From contig JAGTSD010000035.1 of NCBI GenBank assembly GCA_018262135.1, positions 1 to 15,723 on the forward strand: 15,723 nt of DNA, read 5' to 3'. The translations under genes and the position numbers were made by a program. Below are positions 3,113 through 12,944 of the stretch, piece after piece. The notes beneath the pieces were generated by a model that was given only the letters and a program-made list of their open reading frames with translations, was not told the DNA's origin and ran no database searches. The DNA is from Pseudomonadota bacterium (GTDB taxonomy: Bacteria; Pseudomonadota; Gammaproteobacteria; Competibacterales; Competibacteraceae). Every line of letters starts with the position of its first letter. Positions within the stretch are counted from its first letter, which is position 1.

Positions 3113-4069
3113 ATGACGAGCGCGCATCTGGAGCAGGGACTGGTGTCAGGGCAAACGAGGAGCACCGGAGCCACCGTGCGCGTCTGGCTGAAAGCGGCCC
3201 GCGCGCCCTTTCTGACGATGAGCGTCATTCACTGCCTGCTGGGAGGCCTGATCGCCCTCTGCCAGGGACCGATAGATCCAGCGCGGTTCCTCATCGCCAC
3301 CCTGGGCGTAGCAATGGCTCACGCCGCCGCCAATTTGATTGATGACTATTTCGATTTTGCCACCGGCAACCTCGCCAACAAGACCCGGCAGTTCCACGAC
3401 AGCCCGCTGATCGCCGGCCAGGTGACGCCGCGGCAGGTGGGGATCGCAGCCGTGATCTGCATCGTGCTGGCGGTCGCCGCCGGGCTCTATGCCCTCGTTC
3501 GGGGGGAAACCCCGGTACTCGGCCTGATGCTGGCCGGTGGGTTCGGCGTGCTGTTCTACACGGCCCCGCCGCTCCGGCTCAATTACCGGGGTTTCGGTGA
3601 ATTCCTGCTGTTCCTCCTGGTCGGTCCCGCCCTGATCGCCGGGATGAGCCATGTCCTGACCGGACGAATCACCGCCGGGGCGATGGTAGCCTCCATCCCG
3701 GTCGGCCTGTTCGCCACGAACGTCGTGCTGGTCAGCAACCTGTTCGATCACGATGACGACCGGCGGGCGGGGAAGGGTACCATTCCGGTCCGGTTCGGCC
3801 GGGCATTCGCCGTGCGACTGCTGGCGGCATCGTCCGCCCTGGCCTATGGTGCGATTATCGGCGGGGTGGCGTTCGGCCTGCTGCCGGTGGGGTGTCTGCT
3901 GGCCCTCCTCACCGCGCCGCTGGCGGTCGGGGTGATCGGCGCGGCCCGTGATTATCTCGACCCTGCGCGCTACACCCCGGCGATGGTCCGGGCGATCCGG
4001 CTGGCGGTGGCGGTCGGCCTGATCCTGTGCGGTGCGTATGGCTGGACGGCCCTGCATGGGTCTTTTTAA
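3113..4069 (+). CDS. UbiA-family membrane prenyltransferase
   Basis: A 318-aa integral membrane protein with about eight to nine hydrophobic segments from residue ~33 to the end. UbiA-type enzymes transfer a polyprenyl chain from its diphosphate to an aromatic or related acceptor at the inner membrane. The two Mg-diphosphate motifs are visible: N-L-I-D-D-Y-F-D at 74-81 and N-L-F-D-H-D-D-D at 209-216, each at the expected place. The MenA-like features (N-x-x-D-D-Y-x-D-x-x-T-G, and Y-T-A-P-P-L-R-L at ~149-156) suggest a 1,4-dihydroxy-2-naphthoate prenyltransferase or a relative, but no other quinone genes are nearby and the acceptor cannot be deduced. A purine-rich GGAAGGAAG lies just before the ATG. 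It closes the archease-rtcB series. Confidence 0.85.
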   Translation: MTSAHLEQGLVSGQTRSTGATVRVWLKAARAPFLTMSVIHCLLGGLIALCQGPIDPARFLIATLGVAMAHAAANLIDDYFDFATGNLANKTRQFHDSPLIAGQVTPRQVGIAAVICIVLAVAAGLYALVRGETPVLGLMLAGGFGVLFYTAPPLRLNYRGFGEFLLFLLVGPALIAGMSHVLTGRITAGAMVASIPVGLFATNVVLVSNLFDHDDDRRAGKGTIPVRFGRAFAVRLLAASSALAYGAIIGGVAFGLLPVGCLLALLTAPLAVGVIGAARDYLDPARYTPAMVRAIRLAVAVGLILCGAYGWTALHGSF

Positions 4070-11258: not shown

Positions 11259-11690
11259 CTATCGTGCCTGTGCCCAGCGAACGATATCCGCCGTACCCAG
11301 CGCGCCAGCCTGCCGGGCCACCTCGCACCCCGCGCGGAAGAGGATCAGCGTCGGAATACTCCGAATGCCGAACCGCGCGGCGAGCCCCTGCTCCTGTTCG
11401 GCATCAACCTTGGCCAGGCGCACGCGCGGCTCAAGCTGTGCCGCCGCCTGCTCGTAGGCTGGCGCCATCATCCGGCAGGGACCGCACCAGGGCGCCCAGA
11501 AATCCACCAGTACCGGAATATCGTTGTGGTTGATGTGTTTTTCAAGGGTGGTGGCGGTCAAGGCTACCGGTTGGCCGGCAAACAGGGGGCGATGGCACTG
11601 GCCGCAGCGGGGCTGTTCGGCCAGCCGCGCCGCGGGCACGCGGTTGACTGCACGGCAATGCGGGCAGACGAGATGCAACGAGTCGATCAT
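11259..11690 (-). CDS. trxC: Thioredoxin 2 (zinc-ribbon thioredoxin)
   Basis: A 143-aa protein-disulfide reductase of the TrxC type. The ATG at 11690 is chosen because AGGAG lies 6 nt before it; a frame extension of 8 codons upstream has no such site. The N-terminal zinc module has C-P-H-C (Cys9, Cys12) and C-G-Q-C (Cys29, Cys32). The thioredoxin domain follows with V-L-V-D-F-W-A-P-W-C-G-P-C, active-site Cys69 and Cys72, the buried Asp63 of the V-D-F-W motif, and the cis-proline loop S-I-P-T. TrxC is cytoplasmic and stress-induced in enteric bacteria, and its zinc module tunes its redox potential. Here it is the first intact gene behind a heat-shock-type promoter and the deleted cbpA-cbpM pair, so heat-shock expression is likely by context. 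Confidence 0.92.
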   Translation of the reverse strand: MIDSLHLVCPHCRAVNRVPAARLAEQPRCGQCHRPLFAGQPVALTATTLEKHINHNDIPVLVDFWAPWCGPCRMMAPAYEQAAAQLEPRVRLAKVDAEQEQGLAARFGIRSIPTLILFRAGCEVARQAGALGTADIVRWAQAR

Positions 11691-11738
11691 GGAAATCTCC
11701 TGGGGAGGTAGCACTATTCAGCGGGTGTCGGCGGCGCG

Positions 11739-11849
11739 TCAGCCCAGCCCGGCCCGGCGCAGGCGCGCCCGCAGCTCGTCCATTTCTTCCAGCACATCCG
11801 CCACCAGGGCCGCCAGTTCCGGGACGGCGTCGAAATCCCGCTCCAGCCC
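11739..11849 (-). pseudogene. cbpM 3' remnant (chaperone modulator CbpM)
   Basis: On the minus strand, in a frame different from the J-domain fragment before it, codons read [31 protein letters not shown] and end at TGA (11739-11741). This is the charged C-terminal helix pattern of CbpM/MerR-like modulators, which bind the J domain of CbpA and inhibit it. Only about 35 codons remain and no start belongs to them. In intact relatives cbpM directly follows cbpA, so order and strand fit a deletion that joined the start of one to the end of the other. The match is from memory of the family pattern; the helix is short, so the name is less sure than for cbpA. Confidence 0.65.
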
Positions 11850-11950
11850 GGGTGGTACTGGCGCGCGAGCTTGCGTAAAGCTTTCTTGATGTCCTCCGCC
11901 GTGGCGTCGCGGGCCACGCTCGGGGTCTGGTAGTAGTCCTTGAACTCCAA
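11849..11950 (-). pseudogene. cbpA: cbpA 5' remnant, J domain broken inside the HPD motif
   Basis: A TTG start at 11950 with AGGAG 7 nt upstream opens the frame M-E-F-K-D-Y-Y-Q, then [12 protein letters not shown] and L-A-R-Q-Y-H-P. This is the first ~34 residues of the CbpA/DnaJ-class co-chaperone, whose J domain stimulates DnaK ATPase through the His-Pro-Asp loop. The match ends at His-Pro: the next codon is Gly, and the frame runs on into unrelated residues to a TAG at 11714. The glycine-rich linker and the substrate-binding domains (about 270 aa) are gone. The usual Leu-Gly and Tyr in the first helices are Pro-Ser and Leu here, signs of relaxed selection. The expression signals upstream are intact. 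Confidence 0.85.
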
Positions 11951-11995
11951 GCGGGTGCTCCTCTCGGTCAGGTTCCGGGCAGTTTCACGGGAACG

Positions 11996-12024
11996 ATATG
12001 GGGATGCCGGCGGTGTTGATCAAG
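11996..12024 (-). promoter_or_regulatory. Sigma-32 heat-shock promoter, leftward (cbpA remnant, trxC)
   Basis: On the minus strand CTTGATC (12024-12018) is followed after 14 nt by CCCCATAT (12003-11996). The -10 fits the sigma-32 consensus CCCCATnT fully, and the -35 fits CTTGAAA in its first five bases, much like the E. coli dnaK promoter. Transcription would start near 11988, about 38 nt before the cbpA start codon. Confidence 0.75.
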
Positions 12025-12026
12025 CC

Positions 12027-12055
12027 CTTGAAATCCGGTGGAACACACCCACTTT
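12027..12055 (+). promoter_or_regulatory. Sigma-32 heat-shock promoter, rightward (hsp20 pair)
   Basis: CTTGAAA at 12027-12033 matches the sigma-32 -35 exactly. After 13 nt comes ACCCACTT (12047-12054), six of the seven defined positions of CCCCATnT being matched less well than on the other strand (two mismatches). Transcription would start near 12061, giving a 5' leader of about 50 nt. Only 2 nt separate this -35 from that of the leftward promoter. Confidence 0.7.
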
Positions 12056-12082: not shown

Positions 12083-12109
12083 GAAGCAACCTGAATGGAG
12101 GAATTGACG

Positions 12110-12547
12110 ATGTATCGTTCCCTGTTTCCCCGTGATGTCTTCGCCGAACTGGACCGCTTGCAGCACGAGTTGCAGCAAGCCTTCGAGGTTTCCCCCAGCA
12201 TTCGCGGCATTGGCCGGGGCGGGTTTCCGGCCCTGAAGGTGGGGGGCACGCCGCAGGCGGTAGAGATCTACGCCTTTGCCCCGGGACTGGATCCAGCCAC
12301 CCTGGACGTCAAGCTCGAGCGCGATGTGCTCAGCATCGCCGGCGAGCGCAAGGGGGCGCTGCCCGTGCCGGAGGAGAAGGCGGCGGTGCACATCAACGAA
12401 CGCTTTGCGGGCCGTTTCCGTCGAGTGGTGAGTCTGCCCGACGACATAGACCCCGACAGCGTGTCCGCCGACTATCGGGACGGAGTGCTGCACGTCAGCA
12501 TCAAGCGCCGTGAATCGGCTCAGCCCCGCCGGATCAGCATCGAGTAA
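12110..12547 (+). CDS. Small heat-shock protein Hsp20, first of a pair
   Basis: A 145-aa alpha-crystallin-type chaperone that binds unfolding proteins and keeps them refoldable. The ATG at 12110 follows GGAGGA by 7 nt; an ATG at 12095 overlaps that site and is rejected. Residues 1-~40 are the variable N-terminal arm (M-Y-R-S-L-F-P-R-D-V-F-x-E-L-D-R-L), and ~42-135 the alpha-crystallin domain. The domain shows A-V-E-I-Y-A-F-A-P-G-L, R-F-R-R-V-V-S-L-P-D-D-I-D and D-G-V-L-H-V-S-I. The C-terminal I-S-I is the I-x-I motif that docks into a neighbouring subunit during oligomer assembly. It is the first gene behind the rightward sigma-32 promoter and precedes its paralogue by 16 nt. Confidence 0.93.
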   Translation: MYRSLFPRDVFAELDRLQHELQQAFEVSPSIRGIGRGGFPALKVGGTPQAVEIYAFAPGLDPATLDVKLERDVLSIAGERKGALPVPEEKAAVHINERFAGRFRRVVSLPDDIDPDSVSADYRDGVLHVSIKRRESAQPRRISIE

Positions 12548-12563
12548 TCGAGGAGGAACCGCC

Positions 12564-12944
12564 ATGAGCGACAACACTGCTGCGACCCGAGCCACCCAGG
12601 CTGCGCGACCGGAGGCCCTCCTGCTGCCGCCGGTGGACGTGATCGAGAACGGAACCGGCATCATCCTGTATGCGGATTTGCCAGGGGTATCCAAGGACAC
12701 CCTCAACGTGCATGTGGAAGCCGATACGCTGACCATCGAGGGCCGCTTGAGCCTGGCCGTGCCGGAAGGCCTGGAGGTCAGCCACGCCGAGGTGAGCCTG
12801 CCGGGCTATCGGCGCACGTTCACCCTTTCCCGGGAACTGGATACCACCAAAGTGTCCGCCGAGTTCAAACAGGGCCTTTTGACGCTGCGGATTCCCAAGG
12901 CCGAATCCGCCCAGCCGCGCAAGATCGCTGTCAGTGTGGCTTGA
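12564..12944 (+). CDS. Small heat-shock protein Hsp20, second of a pair
   Basis: A 126-aa small heat-shock protein. The ATG at 12564 has AGGAGGAA 6 nt upstream, and begins 16 nt after the stop of the first hsp20 gene, so the two share a transcript. The N-terminal arm is short and Ala/Thr-rich. The alpha-crystallin domain starts at ~22 with L-P-P-V-D-V-I-E-N and shows I-I-L-Y-A-D-L-P-G-V, L-P-G-Y-R-R-T-F-T-L-S-R-E-L-D and Q-G-L-L-T-L-R-I-P. It ends R-K-I-A-V-S-V-A, a looser I-x-V form of the oligomerisation motif. Both paralogues share E-S-A-Q-P-R just before that motif although the rest has diverged, pointing to an old tandem duplication and perhaps hetero-oligomers. Confidence 0.92.
   Translation: MSDNTAATRATQAARPEALLLPPVDVIENGTGIILYADLPGVSKDTLNVHVEADTLTIEGRLSLAVPEGLEVSHAEVSLPGYRRTFTLSRELDTTKVSAEFKQGLLTLRIPKAESAQPRKIAVSVA

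Follow-up and report, generated by a model that had tools for sequence, protein, structure and literature searches.

A deletion scar joining the start of cbpA to the end of cbpM upstream of trxC in a Competibacteraceae genome

The window, the whole stretch of 15,723 nucleotides analyzed here, is contig C306 of a 2.59-Mb assembly of 469 contigs that is 75.5% complete and represents an uncultured relative of Competibacter. On its minus strand, the remains of a cbpA gene and of a cbpM gene are joined in different frames in front of an intact trxC, and a putative heat-shock promoter and a ribosome-binding site stand before them (Table 1). The ribosome-binding site is also present upstream of cbpA in all five intact relatives described below.

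Table 1. Features of the scar and its surroundings, in window coordinates
Feature	Position	Strand	Basis or remark
trxC, intact thioredoxin 2 with N-terminal zinc ribbon	11259..11690	-	NCBIfam NF008229 TrxC, 155.8 bits (cut-off 125); Pfam Thioredoxin and Zn_ribbon_Thio2 over cut-offs
78-codon open frame created by the join (J remnant followed by cbpM sequence out of frame)	11714..11950	-	translation; TAG stop 23 bases before trxC
cbpM remnant: last 35 codons (coiled-coil helix) and stop	11739..11847	-	one frame off the cbpA remnant; tblastn with CbpM of G019
Deletion junction	11847..11849	-	G 11848 possibly from either side; ~1051 bp missing; alignment to intact loci
cbpA remnant: TTG start and first 34 J-domain codons, ending His-Pro	11849..11950	-	Pfam DnaJ, 33.1 bits; 86-93% DNA identity to intact cbpA of G019, G040, G044 and G045
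AGGAG ribosome-binding site of the former cbpA	11958..11962	-	read in sequence
Putative sigma-32 (heat-shock) box CTTGA-N16-CCCCAT	11998..12024	-	74 bp before the start codon; sole zero-mismatch match in the window
hsp20, divergent neighbor upstream of the scar	12095..12547	+	Pfam HSP20, 72 bits

A sequence-only reading of this region had recognized, on the minus strand, the first ~34 codons of the J domain of a CbpA, as far as His-Pro. The Pfam DnaJ match (PF00226) bore this out, scoring above the cut-off of 27.8 bits with an E-value of 6.1e-8. It covered only profile positions 1-30 of 63. In the 78-residue frame the HPD motif reads HPG, so that a complete J domain with HPD is missing, and a Pfam search of the frame found none of the DnaJ C-terminal substrate domains (PF01556), which are present in the orthologue of G019.

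The same reading had the frame switch at this point into a helix typical of the CbpM C-terminus and stop at 11739-11741. The second frame starts from 11849 and gives a piece of 36 residues, for which neither Pfam nor NCBIfam returned a CbpM profile match. This counted against the claim until direct comparison with the CbpM of the intact relative G019 overturned it. In tblastn, the whole G019 protein matched window positions 11858-11745 with 87% identity (E 9.7e-15). A second comparison gave 97% identity over 34 residues (CbpM residues 68-101; E 1.0e-15), and at the DNA level the identity to G019 and G044 was 86-90% over about 100 bases. The short CbpM helix is thus invisible to the profile libraries, and whole-protein comparison is needed to find it. 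Only CbpM residues 64/68-101 were recovered, and their frame lacks its own start. In the CbpM proteins of E. coli and Klebsiella, the corresponding residues, Gly69-Leu98, form the C-terminal coiled-coil helix (PMC4063869).

The helix-turn-helix-like, J-binding N-terminal part of CbpM was sought in the same genome with PF13591 (MerR_2), and no match was found at E <= 1. Nor did this profile and the whole CbpM search reveal a cbpM elsewhere in the assembly, which is incomplete.

Thirty-nine genomes of the family were searched at the DNA level with both halves. Five (G019, G040, G044, G045 and G046) contained both halves, apart. Measured from where the His-Pro codons end to the codon preceding LERDF, the spacing was 1050 bp in G019, G044 and G045, 1048 bp in G040 and 1101 bp in G046. 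All five had trxC-like DNA downstream of cbpM, with the trxC start in frame in four. The cbpM-trxC gap was 13-31 bp in G019, G045 and G046, about 310 bp in G044 (L098, 3208-3517) and 48 bp in the window. In G040 (L097, Ca. Competibacter phosphatis), two single-base shifts near the start of trxC (about 3994-4030, reverse strand) put the ATG and the body in different frames; these either stem from sequencing errors at runs of C or are a genuine lesion.

Four of the five intact contigs come from CPB_M38 (RXIW01000021), UBA2792 (DEHU01000020), UBA6584 (DJIW01000047) and Ca. Competibacter phosphatis SBR_G GAO5 (NZ_SPMZ01000078). They resemble the window in gene order, ribosome-binding site, J-domain start, CbpM end and the trxC that follows. 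The start codon is TTG as in the window, but GTG in UBA6584, and the heat-shock-like box of the window recurs in two of the four, with a variant in a third. What sets the window apart is the loss of about 1051 bp and the change of four J residues. A wider set of 80 named cbpA-like loci was fetched with the fused frame as query. In 71 a CbpM match was found, in every case at a distance of 693-823 bp past the J match, whereas the gap in the window is 3 bp; it was missing at the other nine, some of which are short contig ends.

A cbpA-cbpM pair of the window type was absent from the seven same-genus genomes searched, and the ancestry of the locus within the genus is therefore unseen. One of the genus, G006, has a CbpM-like C-terminus at a contig end (locus L110, C161:12015-12170). 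It was considered as a second scar and rejected, being only 44% identical and lying at the contig end beside other genes, one of which we take to be a polyhydroxyalkanoate synthase subunit gene.

Against G019, G044 and G045, the missing stretch of about 1051 bp begins at the HPD Asp in cbpA and extends to approximately residue 67 of CbpM, which falls in the final third of cbpM. A loss of this length gives a one-base frame change, as observed. Alignment to the intact cbpA-cbpM-trxC loci, as the sequence-only reading had proposed, placed the join at 11849-11847 and corrected two of its details. The deletion had been put at roughly 1.2 kb, larger than the alignment gives, and CCCGG had been suggested as the micro-homology used. 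The cbpA side supplies ...CACCCG(G) and the cbpM side (G)GCTGG.... After CCG, intact cbpA reads GAC, the first G of which is common to both sides, and the CbpM codons before CTG/TTG in the five relatives are CGA, CGG, CAA, CGG and CGG. The intact loci thus allow the sharing of G 11848 only, or of nothing, which rules out CCCGG and leaves an overlap of 0-1 base. Such a join would fit illegitimate end joining or slippage better than recombination between repeats.

The 78-residue junction frame was also searched against a protein database of 5.8 billion sequences, which returned seven proteins. Six were ordinary J-domain proteins. The seventh, P0002 (78 aa), matched over its whole length, junction included, and differed from the window at three residues (L8 for Q8, F25 for L25 and M41 for T41). 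P0002 is a different sequence carrying the same join. It stands for a cluster of 20 member sequences, for which one contig of 2713 bases is noted. Its source is not given; P0002 and the window may derive from one sample, and the window's own protein may be among the cluster members. A search of viral contigs yielded no relative of the fused frame. Together with the five intact relatives, this second copy of the junction upheld the proposal that one deletion explains both halves and their order.

The sequence-only reading had also pointed to J-domain substitutions at normally fixed positions, and had taken the event to be possibly old. The substitutions were confirmed at four positions by counts over 79 of the 80 named loci (L191 was left out). 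Position 10 is L in 76 loci and M in three, and P in the window. Position 11 is G in 75 and S in the window; position 25 is F or Y in all 79 and L in the window; position 31 is K in 77 and Q in the window. P0002 shares P, S and Q with the window but retains F25. The deletion and three of the changes are thus older than the divergence of the two copies, and L25 came later.

Compared with its nearest J sequence, that of G040, the J half has five nonsynonymous and two synonymous differences, whereas pairs among the five intact relatives have 1-5 nonsynonymous and 5-19 synonymous. With the nearest relative as reference and only seven differences in 34 codons, the probability of at least five nonsynonymous was 0.005 if one difference in five is nonsynonymous under constraint, and 0.001 to 0.029 for shares of 0.15 to 0.30. 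The CbpM half, with three nonsynonymous and 11 synonymous differences from G019, showed no excess of amino-acid changes and no signal of decay, and neither half of the scar contains a stop or frameshift. The proposed old age therefore stood in part: the changed J positions, three of them common to P0002, speak for it, and the open frames and the CbpM half against it. By this record the scar appears neither brand-new nor ancient. At silent sites, the J half is nearest G040 (dS 0.09) and the CbpM half nearest G044 and G019 (0.42 and 0.50), which hints at a mosaic history of the locus.

Exact copies of the heat-shock-like box were found 73 and 76 bp before cbpA in G019 and G044, and a one-base variant in G040; none was found in G045 and G046. 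Among the named loci, seven of 76 upstream regions contained the box, against two of 4211 background stretches. When two mismatches were allowed, the window gave six boxes where 4.93 were expected, which is no excess; one such box lies at 12027-12053 on the plus strand. Between the putative promoter and trxC there is no terminator-like site, and one weak sigma-70-like match lies inside trxC. The trxC product has both the zinc ribbon and a thioredoxin domain with CGPC. As read from these elements, a heat-inducible transcript from the putative promoter into trxC is likely. On the other side of the promoter are two tandem hsp20 genes (12095-12944), divergent from the scar, whose listed frames overlap (12095-12547 and 12510-12944).

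Elsewhere in the genome, contig C399 carries an intact CbpA-like paralogue, 53% identical to the CbpA of G044, beside other heat-shock-type genes. A search with the whole G044 CbpA for the missing part of cbpA gave only this paralogue, the remnant itself and a weak DnaJ, an absence that weighs little at 75.5% completeness. The binning fits, since the contig's enoyl-CoA hydratase gene finds its closest counterparts in same-genus genomes (83-85%). A metallo-beta-lactamase-like protein (79-83%) is equally near same-genus and other family members. Of 25 relatives compared, the one that best matches the gene at 1424-2872, presumably RtcB-like from its sequence, belongs to another family (G033, 72%), and a 54% paralogue is on C35 of the same genome. 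Judged by these genes, the contig belongs to the family, though not every gene tracks the genus.

Could the assembler have made the join, the genome really having an intact cbpA-cbpM pair? The assembly, from a metagenome, is fragmented and incomplete, which speaks for such an assembly or binning artefact. On the other hand, assemblers join at repeats of k-mer length, whereas 0-1 base is common to the two sides here. The J positions are changed as expected after loss of function, and no cbpM was found elsewhere in the assembly, though this is incomplete. An assembly error is also made unlikely by P0002, in which the junction recurs alongside three different residues, and we consider an artefact highly improbable. 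The view that CbpM is not involved, and that a truncated J gene runs into an unrelated coiled-coil-like frame, could draw on the failure of the profiles to recognize the 36 residues. It is refuted by the near-identity of the tail, in protein and in DNA, to the CbpM C-terminus of intact cbpA-cbpM-trxC loci, and by its same place relative to trxC.

The new frame might also have been kept because it is useful, with a role as leader or short protein in coupling or tuning trxC translation under heat shock. It begins at the old promoter, ribosome-binding site and start codon, is open for 78 codons in two variants and ends just before trxC. However, the changes hit the most conserved J residues, the sequence past the join is out-of-frame cbpM, and the two variants differ at three residues. 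Stop-free frames of about 78 codons also often arise by chance in GC-rich DNA. We regard such a use as hardly credible.

The scar is real, well supported and a case of ordinary two-gene deletion and pseudogene formation. With high confidence, we interpret the locus as a two-gene null allele of an ancestral heat-shock operon, cbpA-cbpM-trxC, whose putative promoter now serves mainly trxC. A single deletion, its extent given by comparison, removed the middle of the two genes, and the small overlap makes RecA-independent illegitimate recombination the most likely route. No J co-chaperone can be made, because the Asp of HPD, the rest of the J domain and the C-terminal domains are missing, and no J-binding CbpM, because the start and the N-terminal domain are gone. 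The J remnant has drifted since then at otherwise nearly fixed positions. Since the putative promoter, the ribosome-binding site and trxC were kept, with no terminator-like site between, the unit is probably still transcribed into trxC, as a heat-shock transcript of a short meaningless frame followed by trxC. The loss was probably tolerated: it took away the co-chaperone along with the inhibitor dedicated to it, and the paralogue on C399 may be the reason that both could be spared. That the deletion was favored, not just tolerated, by moving trxC about 1 kb nearer a heat-shock promoter and by making the start of cbpA a short leader frame in control of trxC output, is very unlikely. If true, one deletion would have created a new heat-to-thioredoxin wiring, and two or more variants would have kept it.

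Pseudogenes that arise when one short-homology deletion spans two genes are a known general kind in bacteria. The present scar is like them in its clean join, out-of-frame fusion and intact flanking genes; only the genes hit are particular. In E. coli, cbpM lies downstream of cbpA in one operon, the same order as the remnants here, and the helix retained in the window corresponds to the C-terminal coiled-coil dimerization helix of CbpM (PMC4063869). Unlike the E. coli pair, the window can make neither protein in working form. A literature search found no publication on loss of cbpM in Competibacteraceae among the matches listed.

For annotation, the case shows that when an assembly changes frame at a fixed motif, the cause can be a genuine deletion, which intact relatives resolve; annotation by profiles alone would name a DnaJ-like gene at the scar and overlook the CbpM end. 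It also offers a clean, dated case in which a co-chaperone and its dedicated inhibitor were lost in one event, with a paralogue as a possible backup.
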